DNA from: Komagataeibacter nataicola
Lineage (GTDB): Bacteria; Pseudomonadota; Alphaproteobacteria; Acetobacterales; Acetobacteraceae
NCBI RefSeq assembly: GCF_003207795.1
Contig: NZ_NIRT01000023.1
Coordinates: forward strand, 1 to 50,186
Length of the DNA stretch: 50,186 nt
Direction: 5' to 3'
The position numbers were made by a program, and so were the translations under genes. How positions within the stretch are numbered: the first letter of the stretch is position 1; each line of letters opens with the position of its first letter. Positions 14,622 through 47,211 of this stretch are shown piece by piece. The notes below the pieces were generated by a model. The model was given only the letters and a program-made list of their open reading frames with translations, was not told where the DNA came from and did not search any database.

Positions 14622-15341
14622 TTATGCCATGGCGGCTACGGGGGCGTTTTCATCCATGAAGTCAGCCAGTTCGGCTAACGTGGCAAAATGATAATCGGGC
14701 ATGGTAGCTTCTTCTGCGGCGATAGTCGCGCCATAGCCTTCGAGTCCCTGCCGGCGTTCGATCCAGCACACGCAATAGCCCATCTCCCGCGCAATGCCGA
14801 TATCATGGAACTGGCTCTGGGCGACATGCAGGATCTTGTCCTTTACAATACCGTCACGGCTGAGTCGCCCGCGCGTAAAGGCAAAGAATTCCGGGTCCGG
14901 CTTTTCACATAAGGCGTCATCTACCGTTATGGTATCAAAGAACGGATGGTCCAGTGACTTTTCCAGCCCTGTAAATGCCCAGCGCTGGCAATTTGTCATG
15001 GCTACCAGTTTGAAGTGCTTCGAAAGCCGCTTTAGCGCCGCAACCGTATCGGGGAAGGGCTTCCAGTTGCGGGCATCCAGTGCAAAGGCTCTGGCAATGC
15101 CGTTATCGCGCGGCAGGTCGAACTGTTCGGCCAGGATGTGATAGACGGGCACCATATCATCAGGAAACAGGAGCGTGCCCGCGCGGTCATGTGCCGCGCC
15201 ATAGGCGGCGAGAAAGGCCTCGCGGTCCATGGCCTGCCCCGCCGGGCCGCAATGGGCGCGGATGAAGTCCACCATGCCGCTTTCAAAGTCGATCAGGGTT
15301 CCAACTACATCAAATGTCAGTACTTCCGGCCATGATTTCAT
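14622..15341 (-). CDS. HAD type II hydrolase (haloacid-dehalogenase-like), copy 1
   Basis: About 239 residues with HAD motif I LTFDVVGTLID (nucleophile Asp10, then Thr14), motif II LVAMTN, motif III lysine in CEKPDPEFF, and motif IV in a QFHDIG segment. Start chosen at MKSWPEVLTFD; the 15 extra residues upstream do not look coded. The ortholog-like copy at 43965 is very similar throughout, well over half identical by eye. The halide-handling residues of L-2-haloacid dehalogenase (WRxKQ arginine, SSNxWD motif) are not recognisable, so a phosphatase or another acid hydrolase activity is as likely as dehalogenation. Convergent with gntK. Confidence 0.8.
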   Translation of the reverse strand: MKSWPEVLTFDVVGTLIDFESGMVDFIRAHCGPAGQAMDREAFLAAYGAAHDRAGTLLFPDDMVPVYHILAEQFDLPRDNGIARAFALDARNWKPFPDTVAALKRLSKHFKLVAMTNCQRWAFTGLEKSLDHPFFDTITVDDALCEKPDPEFFAFTRGRLSRDGIVKDKILHVAQSQFHDIGIAREMGYCVCWIERRQGLEGYGATIAAEEATMPDYHFATLAELADFMDENAPVAAMA

Positions 15342-15544
15342 GTCAGCACTCCTTGCCGCGATTGCTGGAATTCGGCGGCATTTCATTATCTGAAGGCAAG
15401 TCCTTCATGAATCATGCCTATCATTGCGAACAAGGAATATCATGCTGAAGTCCACATGGTTTTCAGTGCTTTGCGCCGTTCTGCATCGGCCGGGTAGGGC
15501 GAAAACAAGGGCAAAGGCATTGCGCCTGCGCTCAGCCCGCGCTT

Positions 15545-15745
15545 CTAGCGCCGCATGAGCCACAGGATGCACGACGCAAGGAGGCTGATGAGCAGGCCGC
15601 TCGTAATCGGCATATAAAGAGTGAAATTCGGCCGCTGTATCAGGATATCACCCGGTAGCCTGCCAAGGGGAAGGCGCGACAGGAAAGGCCATAACAGGCC
15701 TGCGGCAACAAGAAGCACGCCTGCGGCAATCAGGATGCGGGGCAT
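15545..15745 (-). CDS. DUF2905 family small membrane protein
   Basis: 66 residues with two hydrophobic segments (ILIAAGVLLVAAGLLWPFL and ITSGLLISLLASCILWLM) flanking the conserved LPLGRLPGDILIQRPNFTLYMP that defines DUF2905 proteins. An inner-membrane protein of unknown function, at the family's usual length. Stands alone between two HAD genes. Confidence 0.85.
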   Translation of the reverse strand: MPRILIAAGVLLVAAGLLWPFLSRLPLGRLPGDILIQRPNFTLYMPITSGLLISLLASCILWLMRR

Positions 15746-16159: not shown

Positions 16160-16888
16160 ATGATGAAATTAAAGGACTTCAAGGTTCTGACCTTTGACTG
16201 TTACGGCACCCTGATCGATTGGGAGACAGGCATCATCAACGCCCTGACCCCCCTGACATCGCGCCTCAGGACGCCACTCAGCCGCGATGCCATCTTGCAG
16301 GCGCATGCCAAATATGAGTCCCGCCAGCAAAAATGGACCCCGGGCCGCCCCTATCCGGCCATTCTGGCCAGTGTCTATCGCCGCCTTGCGGAGGAGTGGG
16401 GCGTGCCTCACACCATTTCTGAAGCGCAGGATTACGGACAGTCCGTTCCGAACTGGCCTGCATTCCCCGATAGCACTGACGCGCTTCAGTACCTCAAACA
16501 GCATTTCAGGCTGGTGATCCTGTCCAATGTCGATGCGCGTTCCTTCAGTGGCAGTAATGCCCGGCTGAATGTCGTTTTTGATGGTATCTACACCGCCGAG
16601 GATATCGGGTCGTACAAGCCGTCCATGCGCAATTTCGAATACATGCTCGAATACCTTGCCGACCTCGGGCTGGGGCCGTCAGATGTGTTGCACACGGCGG
16701 AAAGCCTGTTTCATGACCATCAGCCCGCCAACAGGGCGGGGCTGGCATCGTGCTGGATCTACCGCCGCCACGCGCAGGACGGGTTCGGGGCGACGATGGA
16801 CCCCGGCAGCATGCCGAAAATTGATTTCCGCTTCAACTCCATGGCGGAACTGGCCGAGGCGCACAAAAAAGAAATGGCCGAAGGCTGA
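16160..16888 (+). CDS. HAD type II hydrolase, copy 2
   Basis: About 242 residues. Motif I LTFDCYGTLIDWE, motif II LVILSNVD, motif III lysine in IGSYKPSMRNFEYM, motif IV in ESLFHDHQPANRAGL. Start placed at the paired ATGs 16160/16163 behind GGAG; the frame's first ATG at 16079 adds an unlikely lead. Closer to copy 3 (31391; both have FDCYGTLI and YKPxMR) than to copies 1 and 4. Followed 50 bases on by a flavin amine-dehydrogenase-like gene in the same direction. Activity unknown; the dehalogenase SSNxWD motif is replaced by ESLFHD. Confidence 0.8.
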   Translation: MMKLKDFKVLTFDCYGTLIDWETGIINALTPLTSRLRTPLSRDAILQAHAKYESRQQKWTPGRPYPAILASVYRRLAEEWGVPHTISEAQDYGQSVPNWPAFPDSTDALQYLKQHFRLVILSNVDARSFSGSNARLNVVFDGIYTAEDIGSYKPSMRNFEYMLEYLADLGLGPSDVLHTAESLFHDHQPANRAGLASCWIYRRHAQDGFGATMDPGSMPKIDFRFNSMAELAEAHKKEMAEG

Positions 16889-16938
16889 AACCCGTTTCCT
16901 GTCATCATTTCCTGATATCCCTGGTGTTGAGGTCATGT

Positions 16939-18897
16939 ATGAAGAGCAGTGACAGAAAGCTGGGCATGGGCGCCGCGATTTCACGGCGTGATCTCATTCA
17001 TGGCATTGCCGCAACTGCGCTTGGCGCTGCCATGACCCGATCAGGCGCCAGCGAGGCTGCTGCCCCGATTGCCGGTGCCGCGACCTATCCCCCCCTGCGC
17101 GAGGGCATGCGCGGCGCCCATCCAGGTGCGTTCGAGGCTGCGCATGGCCGCCGTGATGGCGCGGCTTATCCTGCTCCCGTCCCGACCGGTGAAACCTATG
17201 ACCTTGTTGTGGTGGGCGGAGGGCTGAGCGGGCTTGCGGCGGCCTGTTTCTACCGTCGGCGCTTCGGGCCGTCGGCGCGGGTTCTGGTTCTGGACAACCA
17301 TGATGATTTCGGGGGGCATGCCAGGCGCAACGAGTTTGTCAGCGATGGCCGCACGCTCATGACCACCGGGGGCTCGGCCTATTTTGTCGCGCCAGACCAG
17401 TGGACGGATCAGGCGAAGGAATTTGTCAGAAGCCTTGGCGCCGATTTTACGGTCAGGCGCAGGGAAACCAGCCCTTTCGCCGCGTTGGGCATGCGGCCTG
17501 CAACCTTCCTGTCGCGCGAAAGCGGGGGCGATGGGCGGCTTTACCCGCATGTCCGTTTTACCGCGCCAACGCCCGCGTTCCTCAAGGCCGCGCACCTGCC
17601 GCAGCGCGTGCGCGAAGATCTTGCCGCAGTCTATCACGGCACGGTCGATTATATGGCGGGCATGAGCACGGCGCAGAAGATCGCGCGCCTGCAATCCATA
17701 ACATATCAGCAGTACCTGCTGGATTACGTGAAGGTGGCCCCCGAGAGCCTGCCGTGGCTGCCGGGCGTGTGGTGCCTGAGCAAGACCGCGGCCAGCGCCT
17801 GGTTTGCCTATTTCCGTTATGCGCCGGGTTTTTCAACATTGGGGGTGGCGCGCGCGCCCTATTCGCCAGAAGCCCCGGAGGACGAGGCGGCTGATTTCCA
17901 TATGCCCGCAGGCAATTCGGATCTGGCGCGGCTCATGGTGCGCGAACTGGTGCCGCAATCCCTGCCGCAGGGCACGTGGCAGTCGCTGGAAACGGTGCGG
18001 CTGCGCTATGATACGCTTGACCGCCCGAAGGCTCCGGCCCGCATCCGGCTGAACAGTATTGTGGTGCGTGTCCAGCATGTCGGTGCGGCTCCGGTGGGGC
18101 TGTTTGAACCCGAAACGCGCCCGGTCGCCGTGGATTACATGCGCGATGGCAGGTGCAGCCGCGTGATGGCAAGAAATGTCATTCTTGCTGGTAATAACAA
18201 CATGATTCCCTATCTGTGCCCCGAAATGCCCGAGGAACAGAAAGCCGCCCAGCACAAGGCCGTACGCGCCGCCAACCAGATCACCACCGTCCTGATCCGC
18301 AACTGGGAGGCCTTCCGTAAGGCCGGGGTGACGCATGTGGATACGCCAACCGGCTTCTTTGGCAGTTTTGCCCTTGATGTGCCGTGGGCGCAGGATGACG
18401 GGCAGCCGGATATGGACCCCGGCAAGGGCGTTATCGTGATCTTCATGACCGGGACCAATTCCGGAATCCTGAATAACGAAACCATGACGCGCGCCATAAT
18501 GGGCACCGACATGCCCGACAACCTGACCATGCAGCAGCAGTTCAGGATGGTGAGGATGGGCCTGCTCCAGACACCCTTCTCGGTTTTTGAACGCGCCGTG
18601 CGCACCCAGATGAACGATGCGCTGGGCCCTTATGGTTTTGATGCCGCGCGCGACATTCTGGGCATTACCGTCAATCGCTGGCCGCATGGTTTTGCCATGG
18701 CGCAGAATTCGCTGTTTGACCCGCCCAGCCCGACGGGTGAACAGCCCTGCGAGATTGCTCGCCGCCAGTTTGGCCGGATTTCCATCGCCAATAGCGATGC
18801 CTCTGGGCAGGATCTGTGCAATACCGCCATCGATCAGGCATGGCGCGCAGTAGAAGAAATGGTACCCCATAATTACGGTTATTATAACAGGATATAG
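16939..18897 (+). CDS. Tat-exported FAD oxidoreductase, spermidine-dehydrogenase-like
   Basis: 652 residues. The N-terminus has a twin-arginine signal (SRRDLIHGIAATALGAAM, Arg16-Arg17), so the folded flavoprotein should reach the periplasm. YPPLREGMRGAHPGAFEAAH follows, then the Rossmann FAD site DLVVVGGGLSGLAAACFYRR near residue 91 and NDDFGGHARRNEF-like pattern. The opening SSDRKLGMGAAISRRD and the GMRGxHPGxFExAH block are those of bacterial spermidine dehydrogenases, which cleave spermidine into diaminopropane and aminobutyraldehyde. ATG at 16939 sits six bases after GAGG; the upstream GTG start is not needed. Followed by a small exported protein. Assignment to polyamines is by family resemblance. 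Confidence 0.75.
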   Translation: MKSSDRKLGMGAAISRRDLIHGIAATALGAAMTRSGASEAAAPIAGAATYPPLREGMRGAHPGAFEAAHGRRDGAAYPAPVPTGETYDLVVVGGGLSGLAAACFYRRRFGPSARVLVLDNHDDFGGHARRNEFVSDGRTLMTTGGSAYFVAPDQWTDQAKEFVRSLGADFTVRRRETSPFAALGMRPATFLSRESGGDGRLYPHVRFTAPTPAFLKAAHLPQRVREDLAAVYHGTVDYMAGMSTAQKIARLQSITYQQYLLDYVKVAPESLPWLPGVWCLSKTAASAWFAYFRYAPGFSTLGVARAPYSPEAPEDEAADFHMPAGNSDLARLMVRELVPQSLPQGTWQSLETVRLRYDTLDRPKAPARIRLNSIVVRVQHVGAAPVGLFEPETRPVAVDYMRDGRCSRVMARNVILAGNNNMIPYLCPEMPEEQKAAQHKAVRAANQITTVLIRNWEAFRKAGVTHVDTPTGFFGSFALDVPWAQDDGQPDMDPGKGVIVIFMTGTNSGILNNETMTRAIMGTDMPDNLTMQQQFRMVRMGLLQTPFSVFERAVRTQMNDALGPYGFDAARDILGITVNRWPHGFAMAQNSLFDPPSPTGEQPCEIARRQFGRISIANSDASGQDLCNTAIDQAWRAVEEMVPHNYGYYNRI

Positions 18898-18952
18898 TCA
18901 TACCCACGATTGACGACCCTGTTGTTGTCTCCTGTCGTGGCATGGAGCAGAA

Positions 18953-19504
18953 ATGGATATGTACAGGAAAGCTGCCCCCACCGGTTCCCGCTTGCGCTGG
19001 CGCGGGGCCACGATGGGCCTGTCGGTTGTGGCCATGATGTCGATGATGCCCACGGCCCGGGCGGCGGAGGAAGCATGGCACGGCACCGATGCACGCCAGC
19101 AGGTATCTGCCGCCCTGCTCGGGCCGTGGAAAGCCGATATTGCCGCCTCGCATTACACCGACCCGCCACCGCGCAAGGCGCTGCGGTTTTTTTCCTATAC
19201 GGAGGGAGGGAAGGTTCTGGTCTCCTTCATGACGCTCAATGCCAGGGGACAGTTCAGTTCCGGGCACTGGGCAGCGCAGGTCGATGGCACGCCCGGCATC
19301 GAGTATCACAGCCAGGGCGGCGCGATCCCGTTCAATGTCGTGTATTTTACAAAGGTCGATGATGACAATTACCATCTTGTGGTCAAAAGAAATGGCAAGG
19401 TGGAAATCACGGCGGATTATGCTCTCTCAAGAGATGGCAGGACACTGTCCTATCGTTACGGGGAGACGGTGGTTATCTATCACCGCTGGGACATGATGGA
19501 ATAA
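18953..19504 (+). CDS. Exported protein of unknown function
   Basis: 183 residues. Signal peptide: basic RLRWRGATMG, then hydrophobic LSVVAMMSMMPTARA with a cleavage site after ARA. The mature part is about 145 residues rich in beta-prone stretches (GKVLVSFMTLNARGQFSSGHW, YHLVVKRNGKVEITADYALS), which suggests a small beta-barrel or lipocalin-like fold, but I do not recognise the family. A good GGAG lies five bases before the ATG. It is 55 bases after the Tat flavoprotein gene and in the same direction, so the two may act together in the periplasm. Confidence 0.65.
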   Translation: MDMYRKAAPTGSRLRWRGATMGLSVVAMMSMMPTARAAEEAWHGTDARQQVSAALLGPWKADIAASHYTDPPPRKALRFFSYTEGGKVLVSFMTLNARGQFSSGHWAAQVDGTPGIEYHSQGGAIPFNVVYFTKVDDDNYHLVVKRNGKVEITADYALSRDGRTLSYRYGETVVIYHRWDMME

Positions 19505-19592: not shown

Positions 19593-19925
19593 ATGGAAAA
19601 AATCAGCTGGAATGATTTTGAAAAGGTTCTGATCGTTGCGGGCACCATTGTCCGTGTCGAGGATTTCCCCGAAGCCCGCAAGCCAGCCTATAAGATATGG
19701 GCCGATTTCGGCCCCTATGGCGAACTGAAAACCAGCGCGCAGTTTACAAGACTGTATGACCGCGACACGCTGGTGGGGCGGCAGGTGATCGGGATCATCA
19801 ATTTTCCCGAAAAACAGATCGGTCCCTTCCGCTCGCAGTTCCTGCTATCGGGTTTTGAAACGCCTGATGGCGTTGTGCTGGCATCGATCGAGCGCAGTGT
19901 GCCCAATGGCACCCGGCTGAGCTGA
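19593..19925 (+). CDS. csaA: CsaA-type tRNA-binding-domain protein
   Basis: 110 residues, all one OB-fold of the tRNA_bind family: [37 protein letters not shown], then [38 protein letters not shown]. This is the length and pattern of CsaA, a dimeric secretion-related chaperone also able to bind tRNA. Starts with ATG after GGAG 12 bases upstream. Probably independent of its neighbours. Confidence 0.9.
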
Positions 19926-20025: not shown

Positions 20026-21459
20026 ATGGTGGATAAGAAAAATTCATCCACCATGGTCAGTATTCTTCCAACCTTGCAGGGAATGGTACACGGCATGGGC
20101 GATACGGCTGGTCCTTCTTATTCCAATCATACCCTGTCCACGCTCAGGCAGCGCCATGTCATCATGATCGCCCTTGGCGGGGCCATTGGGGCGGGGCTGT
20201 TTGTGGGCAGCAGCGCTGCCATTGCCGCGGCCGGACCGGCCGTGCTGGTGGCGTTCGTGGCGGTGGGGCTGCTGGTCATGCTGGTCATGCGCATGTTGGG
20301 TGAAATGGTAACGGCCCGTCCCGGCCGGGGCTCCTTCGTGGCTTATATCCGTGAGGCCCATGGTAATGGAGCCGCGTTTACCGCAGGCTGGCTGTACTGG
20401 TTTTTCTGGCTGGTCGTGCTGGGCAGCGAGGCGATTGCTGGCGCCATCCTGCTGCATGAAGGCATCAATCTGCCTGTCTGGCTGCTGGCAACGGGGCTGA
20501 TTGTCACGCTCATGGTCATCAATCTGGTGGCGGTGCGCATATTTGGCGAATGTGAATTCTGGCTGTCCATGGTCAAGGTGGTCAGTATCGTGCTGTTCGT
20601 GCTGCTGGGCAGCCTGTATGTTGGGCATCTGTTGGGGCCGCCCGTGCCGGTGGCGCGTAACCTGCTGGGGCATGGCGGTTTCATGCCACATGGCAGTATT
20701 GCGGTGCTTTCTATTGTGCCCACTGTCCTGTTTACCATGATCGGCTCCGAAATCGCGACGGTGGCGGCGGGGGAAACGGCAGAGCCTGCCCGCAATGTCG
20801 CGCACGTAACCCGGAGCCTGGGCACACGGCTGACGTTGTTCTACAGCCTCTCGATCGGCCTGATCCTGATGATCGTGCCGTGGAGTGATATCGTGCCGGG
20901 GCATTCACCCTTTGTCATGGCCATGCAGGCCATGCACATTCCGGGTGCCGCAGCGGGCATGCGTATCGTGGTGCTGACGGCGGTGATCTCGTGCATGAAT
21001 TCCAGCCTGTACATCACATCACGCATTCTGGCGGAACTGGCACGCCATGGTGATGCCCCGGCAGCACTTCAGCATCATGGCCGGCGGAATACACCCGTCA
21101 ACGCCATCGTGGCCAATTCCGTGGCCGGAGGTATTGTGGCCTTCGCTTCCATTGTCGCGCCCGATACGGTCTTTTCGTTCCTGCTCAGTTGCAGCGGCGC
21201 GGTGATCCTTGTGGTGTATTCCCTCATCATGACGGCTTATATCGTTTTGCGCCATCGGGCGGGCAGGGATGAGCAAAAAGCGTTTTTCCATCTGCCGCTG
21301 TTTCCAGCCATCAATATTGCCTGCCTGGGCGGAGTGGTGGTGATTTTTGCCGCCATGTTCAGCAACCCCGCGCAGCGTGAAACGGCGGTTGCAAGCCTGG
21401 GCACATGCCTGCTGTTTGTCGTGATCTACAGGGTACGGCAGCGGGGGAGCCAGGGCTGA
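20026..21459 (+). CDS. Amino-acid permease, APC superfamily (GabP-like)
   Basis: 477 residues with about 12 membrane segments. The first carries the APC motif MIALGGAIGAGLFVGSSAAIAAAGPAVLV, then MRMLGEMVTARPGRGSFVAYIREAHGNGAAFTAGWLYWFFW, characteristic of the amino acid transporter family with GabP, AnsP, ProY and others. Conserved VLFTMIGSEIATVAAGETAEP in TM6-7 supports this. Substrate cannot be fixed; GABA is attractive because the neighbours are an amine aminotransferase and, further on, a GabD-type dehydrogenase. Converges with the aminotransferase gene across a repeat and a terminator. Confidence 0.85.
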   Translation: MVDKKNSSTMVSILPTLQGMVHGMGDTAGPSYSNHTLSTLRQRHVIMIALGGAIGAGLFVGSSAAIAAAGPAVLVAFVAVGLLVMLVMRMLGEMVTARPGRGSFVAYIREAHGNGAAFTAGWLYWFFWLVVLGSEAIAGAILLHEGINLPVWLLATGLIVTLMVINLVAVRIFGECEFWLSMVKVVSIVLFVLLGSLYVGHLLGPPVPVARNLLGHGGFMPHGSIAVLSIVPTVLFTMIGSEIATVAAGETAEPARNVAHVTRSLGTRLTLFYSLSIGLILMIVPWSDIVPGHSPFVMAMQAMHIPGAAAGMRIVVLTAVISCMNSSLYITSRILAELARHGDAPAALQHHGRRNTPVNAIVANSVAGGIVAFASIVAPDTVFSFLLSCSGAVILVVYSLIMTAYIVLRHRAGRDEQKAFFHLPLFPAINIACLGGVVVIFAAMFSNPAQRETAVASLGTCLLFVVIYRVRQRGSQG

Positions 21460-21640: not shown

Positions 21641-23035
21641 CTAGCCCTTGAGGGCAGCGCGCACTTCCGCATCGTCGCGCACGGTATCGAGCACGTCGGT
21701 CAGGCGGTCGCACAGCAGGTCGACTTCCTCAATGGTGCAGCACAGCGGCGGGGCGAGGCCGATGATGTCATCACCAAAGGCACGGAACAGCACGCCCTTT
21801 TCATAACCGATGCTCGACAGCTTGCTGGCAATCTTGAGCTTCGCATCCGGCTTGTGCTTGGTCATCTTGTCAGTAACCAGTTCAATCCCGGCCAGCATGC
21901 CGCTGATGCGCACATCACCCACCAGCGCGTGGTTGCCCAGCGCATGCAGGCGGTGGGCCAGATGCTCGCCCGCCTTGACGCCATTGGCCAGCAGGCCCTG
22001 TTCATACAGGTCCAGCACGGCCAGGCCGATGGCGGCGCTGACGGGGTGCGCGCTATAGGTCATGCCATGGCCAACCGCAACGCCGGGGGGCGTGTTGTCG
22101 CGGATGGTGGTGTAAATATCTTCAGACATGAACACGGCGCCCATCGGGGCATAGCCTGATGTCAGGCCCTTGGCGACCGTCATCATGTCGGGCACCACGT
22201 TTTCGCGCTCGCAGGCGAATAGCGGGCCTGTGCGGCCAAAACCCGTAATGACCTCATCGGCCACGAACAGGATGCCCAGTTCACGGCAGGTCTCGCGCAT
22301 GGCCTTCATCCAGCCCGCGGGCGGCACGATCACGCCGCCCGACCCCTGCACCGGTTCGCAGAAGAAGGCCGCAACCTTGTCCGCGCCGAGTTCGGCCACC
22401 TTGGCCTTCAGCGCGGCGACGGAGGCCGCCGTGACGGCGGCATCGCTATTGTCGCCGGGGTGGCGATAGGCATAGGGGCTGGGAATGTGGTGTTGCCACG
22501 ACAGGGGCACATCGGCATCACGATGGAAAGCCGCCAGCGCCGTCAGTCCCGCGCCGGTATAGGTGGAGCCATGATAGCCACGGGCCAGGCCAATGACATG
22601 GCGGCGCTCGGGCGTGCCGCGGGCATGCTGGTAGAAGCGGATGAAGCGCAGCGCGCTATCCACCGCATCCGACCCGCCCTGCGAGAAGAAGATGCGGTTG
22701 AGGTTGCCCGGTGCGCGCGCGGCCAGTCGGCCCGCAAGGGTAATGGCGGGTTCGCTGGCGAAGCCGAAATACCCCGTGGCATAGGGCAGGCGCGCCATCT
22801 GCTCGGTCGCGGCTTCGACCACGCTCTTGCAGCCATATCCGACATTGACGCACCACAGGCCGGAAAAGCCATCAAGCAGTTCCTTGCCGTTGATGTCCTT
22901 GAGCCAGGCGCCATGGCCTGAATGCAGGATGCGGGGACCAGCCTCTTCCTGATCCCGCCAGGAGGAAACGGGATGGATCAGGTGGTCCCGGTCGATGGAA
23001 ATCAGTTTTTCTGGGGTCATGTCGCGCTTGGCCAA
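21641..23035 (-). CDS. Class III aminotransferase (putrescine/beta-alanine:pyruvate type)
   Basis: 464 residues, PLP-dependent omega-aminotransferase moving an amino group from a terminal amine to pyruvate or 2-ketoglutarate. Visible landmarks: LLDGFSGLWCVNVGYG near residue 55, FFSQGGSDAVDSALRFIRFY for phosphate binding, ARGYHGSTYTGAGLTA, the PLP Asp in ILFVADEVITGFGRTG, and the lysine in TVAKGLTSGYAPMGAV. The LWCVNVGYG and MTYSAHPVSAA patterns are those of SpuC/putrescine and related pyruvate aminotransferases. The Lrp regulator lies upstream in the same direction. The product aldehyde would suit the aldehyde dehydrogenases nearby. Confidence 0.85.
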   Translation of the reverse strand: MAKRDMTPEKLISIDRDHLIHPVSSWRDQEEAGPRILHSGHGAWLKDINGKELLDGFSGLWCVNVGYGCKSVVEAATEQMARLPYATGYFGFASEPAITLAGRLAARAPGNLNRIFFSQGGSDAVDSALRFIRFYQHARGTPERRHVIGLARGYHGSTYTGAGLTALAAFHRDADVPLSWQHHIPSPYAYRHPGDNSDAAVTAASVAALKAKVAELGADKVAAFFCEPVQGSGGVIVPPAGWMKAMRETCRELGILFVADEVITGFGRTGPLFACERENVVPDMMTVAKGLTSGYAPMGAVFMSEDIYTTIRDNTPPGVAVGHGMTYSAHPVSAAIGLAVLDLYEQGLLANGVKAGEHLAHRLHALGNHALVGDVRISGMLAGIELVTDKMTKHKPDAKLKIASKLSSIGYEKGVLFRAFGDDIIGLAPPLCCTIEEVDLLCDRLTDVLDTVRDDAEVRAALKG

Positions 23036-26427: not shown

Positions 26428-26711
26428 GGGACCTCCGTTGTGGTAATGCGCATGCCGGGCTGCGCCGTGGTCGAGCATGCGCGCAGCTGCGTGCCGTCCT
26501 CGGTCCACACCCAGCAGTCCTGGCATGCCCCCATCAGGCAGAAACCCGCCCGGGGCGCGTTGTCGAATTCGTTGTGGCGCAGTCGCCCGGTCCGTGTCAG
26601 CACGGCCACAAGCACTGTGTCGCCTTCCAGTGCTTCGATTTCATGGCCATCCACGAACAGGTGTATGGTTTTTCGGTCTTTTTCGGCTACGCGTCGGAAT
26701 AAAGCCGGCAT
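26409..26711 (-). CDS. Small [2Fe-2S] protein, HcnA-like subunit
   Basis: About 100 residues: TIHLFVDGHEIEALEGDTVLVAVL then GFCLMGACQDCWVWTEDGTQLRAC. Four cysteines in a CxxxxCxxC...C spacing bind one plant-type [2Fe-2S] cluster, as in HcnA and small subunits of opine or D-hydroxyproline dehydrogenases. ATG at 26711 preferred over 26747 because conserved sequence begins there; an AGAGA stretch precedes it. First gene of the three-gene overlapping operon (26711 down to 23921). Confidence 0.8.
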   Translation of the reverse strand: MPALFRRVAEKDRKTIHLFVDGHEIEALEGDTVLVAVLTRTGRLRHNEFDNAPRAGFCLMGACQDCWVWTEDGTQLRACSTTAQPGMRITTTEVPWLTNL

Positions 26712-38954: not shown

Positions 38955-39830
38955 ATGACCATGACTGATGCAGCCCTGCTGACCCGGATCAGCATCCGCT
39001 CCATGCGCGAGGCCGATCTGGAAGCCGGTTACAGCCTGTCAAAGGCATTGTCCTGGCCGCATCGTCTGGAAGACTGGCAATTCATGTTTTCCGTGGGGGA
39101 AGGCAGGGTGGCCGAGACCGATACGGGCGAGGTCATCGGCACGATCATGTGGTGGCGGTATGGGAAAACCCATGCCTCCCTGGGCATGGTGATCGTTGAT
39201 GATGCATGGCGCGGCCACGGGATCGGTCGACGGCTGATGACCGAGGCCCGCAATGCCCTGCCGGGTGCGATCATTCACCTCAACGCCACGCCCACGGGGG
39301 TGCCGTTATACGAGAAAATGGGCTTCCGCCCCTGTGGCATTGTCGAGCAGCGGCAGAGCAACGCCGCCGCACAGCCGCTGATCGCCCTGCCACAGGGGGT
39401 GCGCCTGCGACCTGCGGGGCATAATGATCTTGATGCCCTCGTGGCGTGTGACACGCAGGCGTGCGGCATGGACCGGCGCGACCTGATCGCCGCCCTGCTG
39501 ACGGCAGGCAAGGGCATGATTGTCGATGAAGGCGGAGAGGTGGCCGGTTACGCGTTCTGTCGCAAATTTGGCTGGGGCATGGTTGTTGGCCCTGTTGTCG
39601 CCACATCGCTTGAATACGCGGCGGCCATGATCGCTTATTGGATCGGCAGCCATGCCGGGCAGTTCATGCGCCTCGATATTCCCCAGGACTGCGCCCTGTC
39701 ACGCTGGCTCGATGAAATCGGCCTGCTGCGGGTCGATGCGGTCGCTGCCATGGTGACCGATAGCCATGACAGTCATGATGTGGAGAACCCTATGCATCGC
39801 TTTGCCCTGTGCAGCCAGGCTTTTGGTTAA
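38955..39830 (+). CDS. Double GNAT-domain N-acetyltransferase
   Basis: About 291 residues (or two fewer from the ATG at 38961). The first half is a complete GNAT domain: ISIRSMREADLEAGYSLSKALSWPHRLEDW, acetyl-CoA loop VDDAWRGHGIGRRLM, FRPCGIVEQRQ. The second half, from about residue 150 (LRPAGHNDLDALVACDTQACGMDRRDLIAALL), looks like another GNAT-like domain ending VGPVVATSLEYAAAMIAYWIG. Such pairs occur in uncharacterised amine or amino-acid acetyltransferases. Sits between gabD and a GhrA-type gene, ten bases ahead of the latter's start. Confidence 0.8.
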   Translation: MTMTDAALLTRISIRSMREADLEAGYSLSKALSWPHRLEDWQFMFSVGEGRVAETDTGEVIGTIMWWRYGKTHASLGMVIVDDAWRGHGIGRRLMTEARNALPGAIIHLNATPTGVPLYEKMGFRPCGIVEQRQSNAAAQPLIALPQGVRLRPAGHNDLDALVACDTQACGMDRRDLIAALLTAGKGMIVDEGGEVAGYAFCRKFGWGMVVGPVVATSLEYAAAMIAYWIGSHAGQFMRLDIPQDCALSRWLDEIGLLRVDAVAAMVTDSHDSHDVENPMHRFALCSQAFG

Positions 39831-39840
39831 GGAACGCGTC

Positions 39841-40767
39841 ATGTCCATGCTTCTCAAATCCACGGCTGAACGGGCGGATGTGTGGGGCAGGCTGTTTGCC
39901 CGGTACCTGCCCGATGTGCCCTTCCGGGTCTGGCCTGATATTGGCGACCCGGCGGAGGTGGAATACCTTGCCACCTGGGTGCCGCCTGAAAACCTGCTGG
40001 AACAGTTCCCCAACCTGAAAATCCTGTTTTCGGTTGGCGCGGGCATCGATCAGTTCGACCTGAGCCGGATCCCGCCCCATATCCAGGTCGTGCGCACCAT
40101 TGAAACCGGCCTGACCGATGGCATGGTGGCCTATGTGCAGTTTGCCGTGCGGGCCATCCAGCGTGACATGCTGCGCTATATCCACCAGCAGCGCCAGCAT
40201 GTGTGGCAGGCGCGCCCCGTGCGCAGTGCATCGCAGTTCCGGGTGGGCGTGATGGGGCTTGGGCAACTGGGCGTGCCCGTGGCGCAGTCCCTGCGGGGCA
40301 TGGGGTATGTGACGCAGGGCTGGGCACGTTCCCGCCATGACATTGATGGCGTAAAATGCTTTGCTGGTGAAGCGGAACGAATGGAATTCCTGGCCACCAC
40401 CGATATTCTGGTATGCCTGTTGCCCCTGACTGTAGAGACGACGGGCATACTGAACCGTGACCTGTTTGCGCAACTGCCGCGTGGCGCTGCCCTGGTCCAG
40501 TGCGGGCGCGGGCGGCAGATGGTGATGGATGACCTGATGGCAGCCCTTGAGGAAGGGCAGCTTGCCGCCGCCATACTCGATGTAACGGACCCCGAGCCCC
40601 TGCCTGCCGATCATCCGCTATGGGACCGGCCGGATGTGCTGATTACGCCGCATATTGCCAGTTCTACGCCTGCGGAAAGTGGCGGCATGACGATTATCAA
40701 CAACATTCGCCGTTATCTCAATAACGAAGCGCCGGTTGGCCTGGTTGACCGCGCGATGGGATACTGA
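39841..40767 (+). CDS. ghrA: Glyoxylate/hydroxypyruvate reductase A-type dehydrogenase
   Basis: 308 residues of the GhrA branch of D-2-hydroxyacid dehydrogenases. NAD(P) motif GVMGLGQLGVPVAQSLRGMGY; catalytic Arg in LVQCGRGRQMV, Glu in DVTDPEPLPADHPLW, His in ITPHIAS. Start at 39841 (MSMLLKST) follows AAGGA; the longer frame from 39766 runs inside the upstream GNAT gene. Reduces glyoxylate or hydroxypyruvate, or another 2-ketoacid. Last gene of the run that begins at 31391. Confidence 0.85.
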   Translation: MSMLLKSTAERADVWGRLFARYLPDVPFRVWPDIGDPAEVEYLATWVPPENLLEQFPNLKILFSVGAGIDQFDLSRIPPHIQVVRTIETGLTDGMVAYVQFAVRAIQRDMLRYIHQQRQHVWQARPVRSASQFRVGVMGLGQLGVPVAQSLRGMGYVTQGWARSRHDIDGVKCFAGEAERMEFLATTDILVCLLPLTVETTGILNRDLFAQLPRGAALVQCGRGRQMVMDDLMAALEEGQLAAAILDVTDPEPLPADHPLWDRPDVLITPHIASSTPAESGGMTIINNIRRYLNNEAPVGLVDRAMGY

Positions 40768-41118: not shown

Positions 41119-42390
41119 TTACATCAGCTTGTCCTTGATGCGGTAATACATGCCAATGGCGGGCAGGAAGTGTTCAGCCAGCCCATACATGGGAATGCGC
41201 GGCCAGGGCATGTTTTCCAGCGGGTTCGCATGCGGGTTGCCCGCAATCACATCGGCCATGCACTGCCCCATATGCACTGACATCTGCGTGCCATGGCCGC
41301 TATAACCCATGGTGTAGAAAACACCGTTCCATTCGCCAGCGCGCGGCAGGCGGTCTATGGTCATGTCCACATCGCCGCCCCAGCAGTAATCGATGCGGAT
41401 ATCGGGCACCTGCGGGAAAACGGCCTGCAGCGCGGAACGCAGCATCTCGCCGCTCGAGATATCCGTGCTTTCGCGGGATTTGGAAAAACGGGCCCGTCCG
41501 CCAAAAATCAGGCGGTTATCAGCGGCAATGCGGAAATAATGGTGAATGTTCTGCGTCGTGACTACATTGCGGTGGCCGGGCATGATCGATCTGACCGTGG
41601 CGTCATCAAGCGGCTCGGTTGCTACGATAAAGCTGCCGACCGGCATGATGCGCTTGCGGAAATAGGAGGGCGCATGCCGGCTGGTGCCAGTGGCCAGCAG
41701 CACCGCCCCGGCGTCGATCACGCCATGGGGGGTGGTAACGCGGGTGATCCGGCCCTCACGGCGCAGGGCGGTCATGGGCGTGTTTTCAAAGATATGGCCG
41801 CCAGCCCTGAGCACACTGTTGGCCAGGCCGATGCCGAATTTGCCCATATGCATCTGCCCGCTATGCGGATACAGCACGCCGCCGGAGAATTTGGATGAGC
41901 CGATTTCAGTGCCCAGCGCATCGGCTTCCAGCAGGCGGGAATCCGGGTCAACATCAAGGGCGATGCGCGCCTGGTCCGCGCGCAGGCTGGCCATGTGGCT
42001 TTCGCGGCTGGCCAGCTTGAGTTTGCCGCAGCGGCGGAAATGGCAGTCAATTTCATTTTCAGTGACAATACGCTCGACTGTATCCACCGCGCGGTTCAGC
42101 ACCTTGTACAGCCGTGCTGCCGTAGCGACGCCAAGCTTGTCGCACGCCATGCCGTAATTGCCAGCCAGACCGTTATTGACGTGGCCACCATTGCGGCCCG
42201 ACGCCTTGCCGATAACCCGGCCTTCATCAATGACCACAACGCTGGCGCCCGATTTGGCCAGTTTCAGCGCGGCGGAGAGGCCGCTAAACCCGGCGCCGAT
42301 CACCACCACATCCGCCTTTGCAGGCAGGGCGGCAATCGGGGTGCCGGTAAAGGCCGGTGCGGTATCCAGCCAGTAAGATGTCAGCTTCAT
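41119..42390 (-). CDS. FAD-dependent amine oxidase, PuuB/OrdL-like
   Basis: 423 residues, DAO fold. Opening SYWLDTAPAFTGTPIAALPAKADVVVIGAGFSGLSAALKLAKSGASVVVIDEG includes the FAD dinucleotide site; then GKASGRNGGHVNNG, typical of gamma-glutamylputrescine oxidase, FGGRARFSKS, and C-terminal GVFYTMGYSGHGTQMSVHMGQCMADVI. Family members oxidise gamma-glutamylputrescine and similar secondary or primary amines, giving aldehyde, ammonia and peroxide. It lies 21 bases downstream of the MFS gene. A role in amine breakdown fits gabD and the aminotransferase elsewhere in the window; the substrate is unproven. Confidence 0.82.
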   Translation of the reverse strand: MKLTSYWLDTAPAFTGTPIAALPAKADVVVIGAGFSGLSAALKLAKSGASVVVIDEGRVIGKASGRNGGHVNNGLAGNYGMACDKLGVATAARLYKVLNRAVDTVERIVTENEIDCHFRRCGKLKLASRESHMASLRADQARIALDVDPDSRLLEADALGTEIGSSKFSGGVLYPHSGQMHMGKFGIGLANSVLRAGGHIFENTPMTALRREGRITRVTTPHGVIDAGAVLLATGTSRHAPSYFRKRIMPVGSFIVATEPLDDATVRSIMPGHRNVVTTQNIHHYFRIAADNRLIFGGRARFSKSRESTDISSGEMLRSALQAVFPQVPDIRIDYCWGGDVDMTIDRLPRAGEWNGVFYTMGYSGHGTQMSVHMGQCMADVIAGNPHANPLENMPWPRIPMYGLAEHFLPAIGMYYRIKDKLM

Positions 42391-42411
42391 TGGAAATGAC
42401 TCCGTATCCGA

Positions 42412-43749
42412 TCAGGATGTAAGCGATTGACTGGCTTCAGACAGGTTGAGGGTAGCGGTTTCGGGCGCCCATCGCCATGAAATGGCGGCCCCCAGTGTCA
42501 GAAGCATTGCGGCCACCAGCATCATGGCGTGCACCCCGAACTGTATTGTGCCCATGGGCAGCAGCACGGTGCCCACCGCAGCCCCGAGCCTGCTGGCCGA
42601 TGAGGCGAAGCCTACGGCGGTGCCACGAATTTCGGTGGGAAAGAGTTCATTGGGGTAAACAAACTGTAGGCCACTCCCCGCAGCTTCAACCGCAGAGTAT
42701 ATTATGAATGCAACGATTATAAACCAGTTGGCCGGGTGGGGATAGAGACCCACAAAAAATAAGGCGATGGCCCCCCACGCAAATGAACCGATCAGCAGTT
42801 TGCGTCGGCCCATTACATTTATTAGCCCCAGAGAGACAGGAACGGAGCCCAGTAACGTGAAGCTCGTTACAATGCATGAGGCCAGAAGGGAGTTCCCCAT
42901 CCTGAGCTGCTCGAGTATCGGGGCCTGCAGGGTATGGATGGCAAAGGAGGGCGCGCTTTGCAGGATCCAGAAAGCACATACAAAAGCCAGGGCGCCACGG
43001 TAACGGGTCTGGAATAGATGTCTGAGCGACAGTCTGGGCGTGTCGCCCGGCTTGGGTTCATCAAGCAGGACATGCGCGCCCAGATGTTCGCGCACAACCG
43101 CCCGGGCCTCTTCCGCGCGGCCGGCCTGCATGAGCCAGCGCGGGGATTCCGGCATGCCGATGCGAAAGAGCATGAGCAGCGCCGAGGGCACGAGGCTCGA
43201 CCCCAGGATGATGCGCCAGTTATCGGGGAAGTAGAGTGAAAGCAGGTAGCCCGCAATAAAACTGACGATATATCCCACCCACCAGAACGTAATCAGCCCC
43301 GACAGCACGGGGCCACGCCAGACACGGGGCATGAACTCGGTCACGTAAGCGGTGGCAATGGGGTAATCCGCGCCGATGGCCATGCCGATCAGCAGCCGCC
43401 AGAACAGCAGCGCATACAGGCTGCCTGCAAAATACTGCGCGCACGAGCATATCGCAAACATGAGCAGGTTGAGCGTATAGAGCCGCTTGCGGCCCAGGCG
43501 ATCTGAAATGATGCCGCCACCCAGGCCGCCGAGCAGCACGCCGAACAGTGAGGACGCCCCCAGCAGCCCCGTCATGTTGCCTGACAGGTGGAAGTCCTTG
43601 ACCATGACGGGCAGGGCAATGCCGATGATGCCCAGGATGTACCCATCGCAAAACGGACCGCCACCGGCGACAAGGGCCAGTCGCAGGTGGAAGCCCGAGG
43701 GTTTGAGATCATCGATGAGGCAGGGAGAAGTCTGTGGTTGTTCTTGCAT
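42412..43749 (-). CDS. MFS transporter (sugar/acid porter group)
   Basis: About 445 residues and 12 membrane segments. LALVAGGGPFCDGYILGIIGIALPVMVKDF, then GGGIISDRLGRKRLYTLNLL between TM2 and TM3, and PESPRWLMQAGRAEEARAVV after TM6, which is the sugar-porter-style loop. VYPNELFPTEIRGTAVGFASSASRLGAA near TM10-11 confirms the group. Start put at MQEQPQTS (43749); ATG at 43773 is a close alternative. Gene order TBDR-HAD-MFS-flavin oxidase on this strand suggests it imports the compound handled by the flavin oxidase. Confidence 0.82.
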   Translation of the reverse strand: MQEQPQTSPCLIDDLKPSGFHLRLALVAGGGPFCDGYILGIIGIALPVMVKDFHLSGNMTGLLGASSLFGVLLGGLGGGIISDRLGRKRLYTLNLLMFAICSCAQYFAGSLYALLFWRLLIGMAIGADYPIATAYVTEFMPRVWRGPVLSGLITFWWVGYIVSFIAGYLLSLYFPDNWRIILGSSLVPSALLMLFRIGMPESPRWLMQAGRAEEARAVVREHLGAHVLLDEPKPGDTPRLSLRHLFQTRYRGALAFVCAFWILQSAPSFAIHTLQAPILEQLRMGNSLLASCIVTSFTLLGSVPVSLGLINVMGRRKLLIGSFAWGAIALFFVGLYPHPANWFIIVAFIIYSAVEAAGSGLQFVYPNELFPTEIRGTAVGFASSASRLGAAVGTVLLPMGTIQFGVHAMMLVAAMLLTLGAAISWRWAPETATLNLSEASQSLTS

Positions 43750-43929
43750 TGCGCGGCCGGTCCCATCCTTCATGATCGCTGGTGGATATGTGCGGGTAAG
43801 CGGGATATGCCGCCGGTGGCGCAGGGGCCCCGTGCCGGGGCTGCGGGCCGGTGATAAACAGGTGCAGCCCCGTTTTGGCCCTGTCCACAACGGACATCTC
43901 GGTTTCGATGATGGTGCTGTTACAAACAC

Positions 43930-43956: not shown

Positions 43957-43964
43957 GGGCTGGC

Positions 43965-44684
43965 TCAGTCGTAAATCATGAACAGTTCGTTGCGGTCCGC
44001 CATGTCAGCCAGTTCTTTCATGGTGGAGAAGTGGTAATCCGGCGTGGTCAGCTCGGCTACGGCAATCGTGCCGCCAAACCCGCCCACGGCCTTGCGGCGC
44101 TCGATCCAGCACACGGTGTAGCCAAGGTCACGCCCCACCGAGATGTCATGATACTGGCTTTGCGCCACATGCAGGATCTCGTTCTTAACGATGCCATCAC
44201 GGCTCAGGCGCCCGCGGGCGAAGGCGAAGAACTCGGGGTCCGGCTTTTCGCACAGCGCGTCATCCACCGTGACCGAATCATGGAAAGGCATGCCCAGGGT
44301 CTTTTCCATGCCCTTGAAGGCCCAGCGCTGCGTGTTGGTCATGGCCACGAGCTTGAAGTGCTTGGCCAGGCGGGCCAGGGCATCGACTGAATCAGGGAAG
44401 GCGGGCCAGTCATGGGCAGCCTGGGCAAAGGCCTTTACCTGCTCCGCGCCTTCAGGCAGGCCAAAGCGCGGGGCCAGGGTTTCATAGATGGGCATCAGGT
44501 CATCGGGAAAATTAAGGGTTTCGCCGCGTGCGCGCATTTCGCGGTAAGCGCTCAGGAAGGCTTCGCGCTCCACTTTCGCACCGGCTTCACCACACCGGGT
44601 GTGGATGAAGTTCATCATGCCGGTTTCAAAATCGATCAATGTGCCCACGACATCGAACGTCAGGGCTTTGGGTAAACGCTTCAT
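43965..44684 (-). CDS. HAD type II hydrolase, copy 4
   Basis: 239 residues. LTFDVVGTLIDFETGM (motif I), LVAMTNTQRWAF (motif II), CEKPDPEFFAFARGRLSRDGIV (motif III Lys), ILHVAQSQYHDISV (motif IV). Start at MKRLPKALTF, five bases after GAGGAA. Nearly collinear with copy 1 at 14622 (same length, same SRDGIVK and VCWIERR blocks), so they are recent paralogs. It starts 25 bases after the TonB receptor stop and is almost surely co-transcribed with it. Dehalogenase halide motifs not visible. Confidence 0.82.
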   Translation of the reverse strand: MKRLPKALTFDVVGTLIDFETGMMNFIHTRCGEAGAKVEREAFLSAYREMRARGETLNFPDDLMPIYETLAPRFGLPEGAEQVKAFAQAAHDWPAFPDSVDALARLAKHFKLVAMTNTQRWAFKGMEKTLGMPFHDSVTVDDALCEKPDPEFFAFARGRLSRDGIVKNEILHVAQSQYHDISVGRDLGYTVCWIERRKAVGGFGGTIAVAELTTPDYHFSTMKELADMADRNELFMIYD

Positions 44685-44709
44685 GATATTCCTCAGCCTG
44701 TTGTAGTGA

Positions 44710-47211
44710 TCAGAAACCCGTGGTGAAGGACAGGACGCCAGCAAAGCCGCCGCCAACGTAATACTGCGGCGCGGAGGCAGCGACCTGATGCCCGTTGACC
44801 ACCATGGCCTGCCCGTTGGTCTTGATGCTGCTGGTGCCGGACAGATAGCCGTTATTGCCAATGTTGATCAGGTTCAGCTGGATCTGCGGGTGCTTGGCAT
44901 ACCAGAACGACTTGAACCGGTAGCCCATGTTCATGTTGAACGTTTCGTAGCCGGGGATCGACTCATCGTTCATGAAGGTCGAATACTGTTTGCCGATATA
45001 GTTCATGTTGAACCCGGCAAAGACGGAGCCATTGTCGTAATTCAGGCCCACGGCCACCGTAACTTCGGGTGTATTGACCGCGTTCTTGCCTGCCGTGGGC
45101 ATGTAGACCGTCGTGCCATCGGTGGCGGCGGCCTTCAGGTTATTGTCGATGGTGGCATGTTCATACTGCGCGGAGAGGTATGGGCTGAAGTGATGCCACG
45201 GGCGCAGGCCGATTTCGATCTGGGCGCCGCGCGCGGTCTGGCCACCTGCATCTATGGATTCCGAGATGGCCTGCGTGCCGGAATAGGTTGTCGTGCTGAG
45301 CTGGCGGTGGGTGAAGTTGTAGTTGAACAGGGCAAGCGACAGGTTGACGAAGCCGGTATGGCGGTAGCCGATTTCTTCCCCGATGGCGAACTCAGGCTGC
45401 AGGCCCCTGGCGTGGCGGGTGGAAAGCTGGCCGCTGGAAATGCTGTAGCGGTCCGCGTAGGTCATGATCGAGGCGGGCATGCGGAAGGAAGACGTGCCGT
45501 TGATGTAGATCTGGTCATGAGGCGTGATCTTGTAGCTGGCCATGAACTGCGGCAGGGGTTCGGCCACGCTCTGCCCGGTGCCATATGTCACATCGGGGAT
45601 GGCGTTGGTTTCGCTGCGCGTCACCATGACTTCCTTGAAGCCCGCCGTCAGGGTCAGCCGGTCATGCAGCGCGCGGTAAGTGTCGTTGATGAACAGCGCG
45701 TTGGTCTGCTGGATGAGGTGGATGTTGTAGGTGGAGAGCACCTGCCCGTTCTGGGTCAGGATGGCGTTGCTGCCCCACTGGCCCGATGGCGTGCCATCGC
45801 CATTGGCGGCCTGGTAGCTCTGCGGTTCCGACTGGTCGAAGTAGGAATACCATGCACCGCCCGTCAGGGTGTTGTGGCCCTTGGTCCATGACAGTGCGGC
45901 GTTGATGCCGGAATAGGCGAGGGTATAGGTATCGATCGACCCGGCAAGGATGGAGGAGCCGGTCTGCGCGCCCGTGTTCTGCAGGGTGCCAGCGGGCTGG
46001 CTGCCATAATAGGAGCCGTTGCGGCTCAGGGTCGAAGCGCCGTTGTCGTAACCCCAGGAATAGGTGAAGTAGGGGGTGACATCCAGCGTCAGGCCCTTGG
46101 CCAGCTTGACATTGACCGGTGCGCCCATGGTGATTTTCTTCATGCGGTTTTCTTCAAAACCGTAGTAATTCGCAGGTGAGCTGCCGCCTGGCGTGTCGTT
46201 GTAATTGAAATTGACGCCGTACTGGTTCCACTGCGCCTTGGTGGGCGCGCGCAGGTAGTACTGCTGTGCGTCGTTGTAGGCGAAAACAAGGGAGGCACGG
46301 TTGCCGTCACCCCATTCTTTCAGGAACTTCATATCGACATGATAACGCTTTGTCGCGCCAACGCCGCGCCATTCATCGGCCGTGCGGTCGGAAAAGGACA
46401 CGAAGCCACGGATGCCGGTATGGCCGATCTCGCCGGTATCGAAACGCACGAACTCACGCCGCAGGCTGAAAGAGCCATAGCTGAGATTGACATGACCGCC
46501 CATTTTGCGTGACGGGTCACGCATTTTCACGGACATTTCGCCGCCGACGGCGTTGTATAGCGGGGACTTCGTATCCGGTGAGCCCTGGGTCAGGGTAACG
46601 GATTCAATGTTTTCGTTATCGGATGAAGCAGATGTATAGGGCAGAAGGTAAACCGGGGCTGCTGCCGGTATGCCTTCGAACAGATAGCCGATTTCCTGCT
46701 GGTTCAGGCCGCGAATGGTCAGTCCCTGCTGGTCATCATTGGTGCCCAGCGGGTCATTGCCACCATAAACGACGCCCGGCAGGCTGGCGATCATGGCAAC
46801 CGCGTTGGAGGTCGGGCTCTGTTTTGCAATGAAATCGCGCGTCAGCCCGCTACGGGACTTTGCAATGGTCTGTGGTGGCATGAGGCCGCCGCCCGGCGTG
46901 GTGTTCGTCACCCCGTTTGATGTTGGCGTGCCATGGGTAACATGAATGAATTCCGTCTTGGCCTGCGGTGGCGCGGCGGCGGCAGCAGCCGGGGCGGGCT
47001 TGGCTGTTGTCGTGGTTGTCTTGGCGTGTTGTGACGCGGCGGTTCTGGTGTTTTCTGCCGCATCGGCGCCCGCGCTCATGAAAGGCAGCATGAAAGAGGC
47101 AACGGAAAGAAACAGGAACCTGGATCGTGACCATGCCGGATAACGGAACAGGTCATGTGTACGGACGGTCGTGTGGATACCAACCAATGAGCACAATTTA
47201 TTATCAGTCAT
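44710..47211 (-). CDS. TonB-dependent outer-membrane receptor
   Basis: 833 residues. Long N-terminal lead with a signal (SRFLFLSVASFMLPFMSAGADAA), an Ala/Thr/Pro-rich linker, a possible TonB box at EFIHVTHGTP, then the plug: LPGVVYGGNDPLGTNDDQQGLTIRGLNQQEIGYLFEGIP and GSPDTKSPLYNAVGGEMSVKM. The barrel follows, ending in the aromatic FTTGF expected of outer-membrane proteins. It imports a large or scarce substrate using TonB energy. ATG 47211 is chosen; a GGGGAT precedes it. Co-directional with HAD copy 4, MFS and flavin oxidase, so the ligand may be an amine-containing or chelated compound rather than a siderophore; that is inference. Confidence 0.88.
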   Translation of the reverse strand: MTDNKLCSLVGIHTTVRTHDLFRYPAWSRSRFLFLSVASFMLPFMSAGADAAENTRTAASQHAKTTTTTAKPAPAAAAAAPPQAKTEFIHVTHGTPTSNGVTNTTPGGGLMPPQTIAKSRSGLTRDFIAKQSPTSNAVAMIASLPGVVYGGNDPLGTNDDQQGLTIRGLNQQEIGYLFEGIPAAAPVYLLPYTSASSDNENIESVTLTQGSPDTKSPLYNAVGGEMSVKMRDPSRKMGGHVNLSYGSFSLRREFVRFDTGEIGHTGIRGFVSFSDRTADEWRGVGATKRYHVDMKFLKEWGDGNRASLVFAYNDAQQYYLRAPTKAQWNQYGVNFNYNDTPGGSSPANYYGFEENRMKKITMGAPVNVKLAKGLTLDVTPYFTYSWGYDNGASTLSRNGSYYGSQPAGTLQNTGAQTGSSILAGSIDTYTLAYSGINAALSWTKGHNTLTGGAWYSYFDQSEPQSYQAANGDGTPSGQWGSNAILTQNGQVLSTYNIHLIQQTNALFINDTYRALHDRLTLTAGFKEVMVTRSETNAIPDVTYGTGQSVAEPLPQFMASYKITPHDQIYINGTSSFRMPASIMTYADRYSISSGQLSTRHARGLQPEFAIGEEIGYRHTGFVNLSLALFNYNFTHRQLSTTTYSGTQAISESIDAGGQTARGAQIEIGLRPWHHFSPYLSAQYEHATIDNNLKAAATDGTTVYMPTAGKNAVNTPEVTVAVGLNYDNGSVFAGFNMNYIGKQYSTFMNDESIPGYETFNMNMGYRFKSFWYAKHPQIQLNLINIGNNGYLSGTSSIKTNGQAMVVNGHQVAASAPQYYVGGGFAGVLSFTTGF

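Follow-up and report, generated by a model that had tools for sequence, protein, structure and literature searches.

A conserved catabolic locus of Komagataeibacter nataicola with a probable azetidine theme

In Pseudomonas sp. A2C, a HAD hydrolase opens L-azetidine-2-carboxylate (Aze) to 2-hydroxy-4-aminobutyrate, and a homologue of γ-aminobutyrate (GABA) transporters could import the product for transamination, as described in the passages of PMC8016842 on this strain. Here we describe a gene cluster at positions 14622-47322 of contig NZ_NIRT01000023.1 from Komagataeibacter nataicola (GCF_003207795.1); the whole stretch of 50,186 nt that was analysed is referred to as the window. The cluster is a real, conserved catabolic locus, in which a predicted Aze hydrolase and three relatives of it stand among transport, aminotransferase, oxidase and dehydrogenase genes. 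Its theme is probably azetidine, and we put the chance that it is centred on hydrolytic opening of the azetidine-2-carboxylate ring at about even.

Four HAD hydrolases (HADa, HADb, HADii and HADc) are present in the cluster, and the best solved match of each is either the Aze hydrolase 3smv or 8hp5, a near relative of that enzyme. The next solved families, epoxide and cis-epoxysuccinate hydrolases, score at most 48 bits, and at E 1e-6 no solved family besides Aze hydrolase matched HADa. HADb shares 58% identity with 3smv and 63% with 8hp5, and falls into a 24-row clade with 3smv in a tree of 99 rows (support 99/94; the program gives a long-branch warning, including for the HADb and 3smv rows). 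The alignment retains the HAD motifs FDCYGTLI, LSN, YKP and ESLFHDH in HADb, which we take to be the Asp nucleophile, the Ser/Thr, the Lys and the acidic motif. HADb is predicted from this kinship to be an L-Aze hydrolase, and HADs of the Aze-hydrolase family in the cluster indicate an azetidine ring compound. 8hp5 is nearly identical to HADb of the Novosphingobium locus L049, whose operon also contains a class III omega-aminotransferase (AMT), an Lrp regulator, TtuC, an SSADH-type aldehyde dehydrogenase, a tRNA-binding protein and a SpdH-like gene. HADa and HADc (both 36% identical to 3smv) and HADii (29%) are outside the 3smv clade, with HADa and HADc sharing one clade and HADii located in a third; judged by sequence, these three are filed as relatives only, not as Aze hydrolases. 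HADa and HADc are paralogues, 61% identical, near opposite ends of the region. A search of the window genome with HADii gave four matches at E≤1e-10, every one of them within this region.

Public annotation names the key HAD enzymes haloacid dehalogenases. Growth on haloacids, in which the HADs would be 2-haloacid dehalogenases in keeping with their family name, agrees with the scores of HADb (149 bits) and HADii (167 bits) against TIGR01428 (haloacid dehalogenase type II, cut-off 125), a level that HADa (89) and HADc (106) do not reach. This explanation is hardly credible: solved L-2-haloacid dehalogenases score at most 37 bits with HADii against 94-100 for 3smv and 8hp5, the Aze hydrolase 3smv likewise carries the PDB label (S)-2-haloacid dehalogenase, and AMT, the importer and the oxidases would be left unexplained. 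TIGR01428 does not tell Aze hydrolases apart from dehalogenases, and the haloacid-dehalogenase annotation of the key enzymes would hide an azetidine pathway.

The core of the locus comprises 17 genes, from AMT to a DAO-fold FAD amine oxidase (DAO). The outer parts are HADa, HADb, the SpdH-like gene, the tRNA-binding protein and an APC permease on one side, and an MFS transporter, HADc and a TonB receptor on the other. AMT orthologues with 91-98% identity occur in 5 of 18 other genomes of the genus. All 17 core genes are found together in G003, G004, G014 and G018, with order and orientation as in the window; in G007 the core is kept up to the contig end, which falls inside an importer gene. 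The flank from HADa to the permease is kept in G003, G007 and G018, and the flank with MFS, HADc and TonB in G003 and G018. Both flanks are absent within the 56 kb of G004 compared, and the G014 contig stops at both core ends, so that most flank genes are beyond reach there; no HAD of the Aze-hydrolase family other than the core one was found in G004 and G014. Among the 13 genomes of the genus that have no AMT orthologue, 11 gave no match to the HADii query at E≤1e-10 and 2 (G002 and G010) gave one distant match.

Outside the genus, 928 plasmid records matched, and 4 regions out of 20 listed were compared. All four contain orthologues of ALDH1, TtuC, SSADH, DAO, HADii, GNAT, AMT, HADc and GhrA in a different order, and the importer is seen in three, the fourth region being cut at that point. 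Most of the core recurs, with gene order changed, in Azospirillum, rhizobia and Chelatococcus. HyuA/HyuB hydantoinase/oxoprolinase genes are located beside some versions of the core (L092, L001, L004 and L080). TonB receptor orthologues at 64-67% occur in four Gluconobacter/Neokomagataea loci; TonB receptors near the cluster in Sphingomonas/Novosphingobium (L053 13678-16017 and L049 17574-20183) gave no tblastn match to the window receptor. The SpdH-like gene is rare, with one other copy among 289 class genomes at E≤1e-80. The initial annotation had named gene order scattered in all relatives as a sign against it, and this did not come true: the core is intact in 4 of the 18 genomes and conserved in other bacteria, with gene order rearranged beyond the genus. 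The flanks proved separable. The set is not a single block. It consists of the core and an adjoining second module of Aze hydrolase, SpdH-like enzyme, tRNA-binding protein and permease.

The two modules can also be recognized in loci anchored on AMT. Out of 573 confirmed loci, the best 80, all named, make up the set and were viewed with a 10 kb flank around AMT; the loci are not independent, and L033, L034 and L038 duplicate the contigs of G007, G014 and G003. HADb is the only HAD type in 12 loci and HADii in 47; both occur in 2 (the two K. xylinus loci), only HADa/c in 2, and none in 17. The 12 HADb-only loci contain Lrp (11), SSADH (9), TtuC (8), the tRNA-binding protein (8), GNAT (1) and the binding protein (1), and no DAO or GhrA. 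In all of them HADb is on the AMT strand, with its start -10 to +17 bases from AMT, and a Leisingera plasmid has AMT, HADb, Lrp, SSADH, TtuC and the tRNA-binding protein in a row. The 47 HADii-only loci contain SSADH (36), GhrA (36), Lrp (33), GNAT (30), a cupin (27), the binding protein (26), DAO (23), ALDH1 (22), TtuC (21) and HADa/c (11), and none has the tRNA-binding protein. In the 23 HADii-only loci that contain DAO, the DAO gene is at most 77 bases from HADii in 19 and shares its strand in 15. Nine contexts anchored on HADii (seven class genomes and two from the same family) have DAO nearby in seven (six at ≥50% and one at 30%), the binding protein in three at ≥49% plus one weak case, and GNAT in four. 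The window combines the HADb module with the HADii (core) module. Linkage is firm for HAD, DAO and importer, and for AMT it holds in part of the family.

Several results weigh against the azetidine reading. In the class-wide sample (289 genomes, 33 with a HADb match at E≤1e-40), 20 contexts were taken, 10 at 55-66% and 10 at 46-55% identity, four of them on contigs below 8 kb; these contained no orthologous AMT and no tRNA-binding protein, one having an AMT paralogue at 34% and one SSADH. An obligatory link between HADb and AMT is not borne out by these contexts. Among six HADb plasmid loci, out of 22 records at 60-80% identity, AMT is present in only two, Lrp in four and the tRNA-binding protein in three, and two (L029 and L032) have no related neighbour. 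Orthologous AMT was found in none of the nine HADii-anchored loci. Three HADc-anchored loci hold almost none of the core, and two of those three genomes also have HADii. The 17 AMT loci that have no such HAD include six from Pandoraea and four from Methylobacterium, which suggests that AMT has other uses; another four are from Acetobacteraceae, where the HAD may sit past the 10 kb flank. In the window itself, 9 kb separate DAO from HADii. HADb and HADii do carry the haloacid dehalogenase label of TIGR01428, and HADii, HADa and HADc, at 29-36% identity to 3smv, could possibly have other substrates.

The tRNA-binding protein is present in 10 of 14 HADb-bearing AMT loci and in none of the 66 others; the Fisher value for this association was computed without regard to relatedness, and one of the ten cases (L056) is 8.5 kb from AMT. 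The gene lies beside Aze-hydrolase genes in the window and in L027, L028, L030, L049, L058, L060, L061, L105, L108 and L111. Ten of the proteins, drawn from HADb loci in several families, cluster together with support 87/94, which is under the star level of the program, and the window copy is outside this group. A second, chromosomal copy is present in the window genome, G003 and G007 (G018 was outside that search). The toxicity of Aze comes from its being charged instead of proline, so that a link to tRNA handling deserves attention. The tRNA-binding protein perhaps accompanies Aze-hydrolase operons to handle Aze-mischarged tRNA. A literature search on tRNA editing with Aze gave no result; PMC9425024 has azetidine in its reference list only and lends no support.

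We infer the following pathway, in which the HADb reaction would rest on 58% identity to a known enzyme. A HAD hydrolase would open the azetidine ring with inversion to D-4-amino-2-hydroxybutyrate; L-2-haloacid dehalogenases invert configuration, so the product should be D-configured. The class III aminotransferase would convert it to D-2-hydroxy-4-oxobutanoate, which the SSADH-type enzyme would oxidize to D-malate. The TtuC family includes D-malate dehydrogenases, and formation of D-malate would explain why a TtuC-type enzyme, yielding pyruvate, is kept instead of relying on L-malate dehydrogenase. Free or released Aze would be handled by HADb together with the SpdH-like enzyme and the GABA-type permease. 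The substrate of the core (ABC importer, DAO, HcnABC, ALDH1, HADii, HADc, GNAT and M20) would be a larger azetidine carboxylate with a substituent on the nitrogen, and a toxic intermediate may be masked and later unmasked by GNAT and M20.

A larger molecule with secondary amines would fit the importer, DAO, HcnABC and ALDH1. Nicotianamine, which carries metals in plants, or mugineic acids would be our tentative first choice, because their two aminobutyrate arms would yield aldehydes for the oxidases and aldehyde dehydrogenases; nothing substrate-specific points to nicotianamine, which counts against it. It is possible, if doubtful, that the core is a widespread bacterial cluster degrading nicotianamine or mugineic-acid metallophores through ABC/TonB import, HAD ring opening and arm removal by DAO/HcnABC, with the fragments going to D-malate and aspartate. 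Passages in PMC7946895 and PMC12723747 describe mugineic acids as readily degraded by soil microbes, and name no genes for this microbial phytosiderophore loss. The instability of deoxymugineic acid (DMA) is ascribed by the authors of PMC7946895 to the strained four-membered ring; the biodegradation assay in the part of that paper concerned compares PDMA with citrate and EDTA, not with DMA. The soil instability of DMA is suggestive of enzymatic ring opening, and ring strain could also act without enzymes. No report of genes by which bacteria break down nicotianamine or mugineic acids turned up in a literature search, a weak negative as coverage was partial and most subscription papers lay outside it. 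If the core does act on these compounds, it would provide candidate genes for microbial phytosiderophore loss in soil, and the longer soil life of PDMA, in which proline replaces the four-membered ring, would become testable.

The whole locus could instead serve detoxification and use of free Aze only, with the core as a second Aze route that has diverged. The HADb module by itself is a plausible full pathway, and fungal GNAT enzymes detoxify Aze according to the relevant passages of PMC8016842. We consider this improbable, as the family-5 ABC importer, HcnABC, DAO, two aldehyde dehydrogenases and TonB receptor would not be needed, and the core is present without HADb in G004 and G014.

The initial annotation had read the region as an amine, opine and N-acyl catabolic cluster. 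Its four transporter types (APC, family-5 ABC, MFS and TonB), its three kinds of amine-oxidising flavoenzyme (SpdH-like, HcnABC-like trio and DAO) and its AMT, M20, two aldehyde dehydrogenases, TtuC, GhrA-like enzyme and double GNAT were all recovered at the given coordinates or close to them; the four HAD hydrolases, the Lrp regulator and the tRNA-binding protein had been left out. In polyamine/GABA catabolism, the SpdH-like enzyme and DAO would oxidize spermidine or putrescine derivatives, and AMT and SSADH would finish via GABA to succinate. The SpdH score (342 bits), the GABA-permease-like transporter, SSADH and the closeness of AMT to polyamine and GABA transaminases in the PDB agree with this. 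It is nevertheless unlikely: glutamine-synthetase-like PuuA and C26 PuuD domains are absent from the 42 window open reading frames (ORFs) covered by the Pfam domain scan, the four HADs, TtuC and GhrA are left unexplained, and the SpdH-like gene is rare and absent from the compared G004 stretch. An oxidase of opine type with HcnABC-type subunits is represented, as judged from sequence, by the HcnA, HcnB and HcnC types found. A route of the ectoine/2,4-diaminobutyrate (Doe) type would draw on the M20 enzyme, whose nearest model is DoeB2 (347 bits), and an Lrp/AsnC regulator, a class III aminotransferase and SSADH make up a Doe-like set. We regard it as highly improbable: M20 falls short of the DoeB2 cut-off (550), the scanned ORFs include no M24 (DoeA) domain, and the HADs and TtuC are left unexplained. 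The polyamine, ectoine, opine and haloacid readings were set aside as the main explanation. The initial proposal holds as far as it describes a catabolic block that combines import and transamination with the oxidation of amines and semialdehydes, so that the polyamine/opine reading is partly supported; its polyamine/GABA/opine/N-acyl theme is not supported, as PuuA, PuuD and M24 domains were not found among the 42 scanned ORFs and the HADs point to azetidine.

Table 1. Genes of the cluster, with coordinates in the window and the matches behind each assignment.
Feature	Coordinates	Strand	Matches and remarks
HADa, HAD hydrolase	14622..15386	-	3smv best solved relative, 129 bits; 36% identical over the aligned fragment
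HADb, predicted Aze hydrolase	16163..16888	+	321 bits to 3smv, 360 to 8hp5; ORF spans 16079-16888, homologous part begins at 16163
SpdH-like flavoenzyme	16924..18897	+	PDB spermidine dehydrogenase SpdH, 342 bits, E 7e-101; putative twin-arginine signal ISRRDLIHG, assessed by eye only (Tat type in the initial annotation)
Small protein, signal-like start	18953..19504	+	Between SpdH-like and tRNA-binding protein genes; kept in G003, G007, G018; no match in Pfam and NCBIfam searches
tRNA-binding protein (CsaA/YgjH-like)	19593..19925	+	NF007495, 139 bits, cut-off 117
GABA-permease-like APC transporter	20026..21459	+	Pfam AA_permease, 299 bits; top NCBIfam model GABA permease, 378 bits, under cut-off 678
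AMT, class III omega-aminotransferase	21641..23035	-	NF004625, 752 bits, cut-off 729
Lrp/AsnC regulator	23216..23713	-	Profile matches
HcnC-like DAO subunit	23921..25060	-	Profile matches
HcnB-like subunit with BFD [2Fe-2S] domain	25057..26526	-	Profile matches
HcnA-like [2Fe-2S] subunit	26409..26747	-	Fer2_4, 85 bits
ALDH1, aldehyde dehydrogenase	27006..28490	+	Profile matches
M20 amidohydrolase	28497..29675	+	Nearest model DoeB2, 347 bits, below cut-off 550
TtuC, tartrate/D-malate dehydrogenase family	29672..30745	+	TIGR02089, 541 bits, cut-off 470
HADii, core HAD hydrolase	31391..32059	+	TIGR01428, 167 bits, cut-off 125; 8hp5 100 bits, 3smv 94 bits
Family-5 solute-binding protein	32173..33804	+	Profile matches
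ABC permease B	33801..34757	+	Profile matches
ABC permease C	34754..35578	+	Profile matches
Fused double ABC ATPase with oligo_HPY	35575..37434	+	Profile matches
SSADH-type aldehyde dehydrogenase	37453..38913	+	TIGR01780, 656 bits, cut-off 646
Double GNAT acetyltransferase	38955..39830	+	Acetyltransf_18 and Acetyltransf_7
GhrA-like D-2-hydroxyacid dehydrogenase	39766..40767	+	201 bits, below cut-off 403
DAO, DAO-fold FAD amine oxidase	41119..42390	-	Nearest NCBIfam model AmaA, 176 bits, cut-off 600; no match in PDB search at E≤1e-10
MFS transporter	42412..43929	-	Profile matches
HADc, HAD hydrolase	43965..44684	-	3smv best solved relative, 143.5 bits; ORF spans 43965-44861, homologous part starts near 44684
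TonB-dependent receptor	44710..47322	-	Plug domain; TonB-hemin, 50 bits

Upstream of the cluster, the remains of an IS3-type element at 1219-1935 consist of an ALIL pseudoknot and an ORF whose domains are HTH_21 and integrase core; a tRNA-Met (53-129) is some 1 kb away. At 4574-7270, a ScfR-type short-chain fatty acyl-CoA regulator adjoins an ORF with a partial AMP-binding domain (234/384 profile positions). A GFO/IDH/MocA oxidoreductase, an MFS transporter, an FAA-hydrolase-like protein, a 2-hydroxyacid dehydrogenase and an OprB porin are lined up at 7415-13291, which looks like a separate operon of sugar-acid type.

Among known systems, the ectoine (Doe) cluster shares the M20, Lrp, class III aminotransferase and SSADH types with this locus and differs in its DoeA-type domain, which the scanned window ORFs lack, and in M20, which is below the cut-off here. 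The staphylopine and nickelophore importers (Cnt and Nik) are family-5 importers as well. The window ATPase scores above the CntD, CntF, NikD and NikE cut-offs, but it is a fused double domain whose score sums two stretches, so that the cut-off means little, and the solute-binding protein reaches only 29 bits with CntA (cut-off 800). Aze assimilation by AzhA and NgnA in Aspergillus nidulans likewise uses a HAD hydrolase and a GNAT, with entry into the GABA pathway; the fungal genes are unclustered as far as described in the relevant passages of PMC8016842, and the window GNAT is a double-domain protein of different Pfam make-up. The Aze pathway of Pseudomonas sp. A2C shares the HAD hydrolase (58% identical), the GABA-transporter homologue and transamination. 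To these the window adds three further HADs, the ABC importer, two oxidase systems, SSADH, TtuC, GNAT, M20 and the TonB receptor, and the steps beyond the A2C scheme would lead to D-malate and pyruvate.

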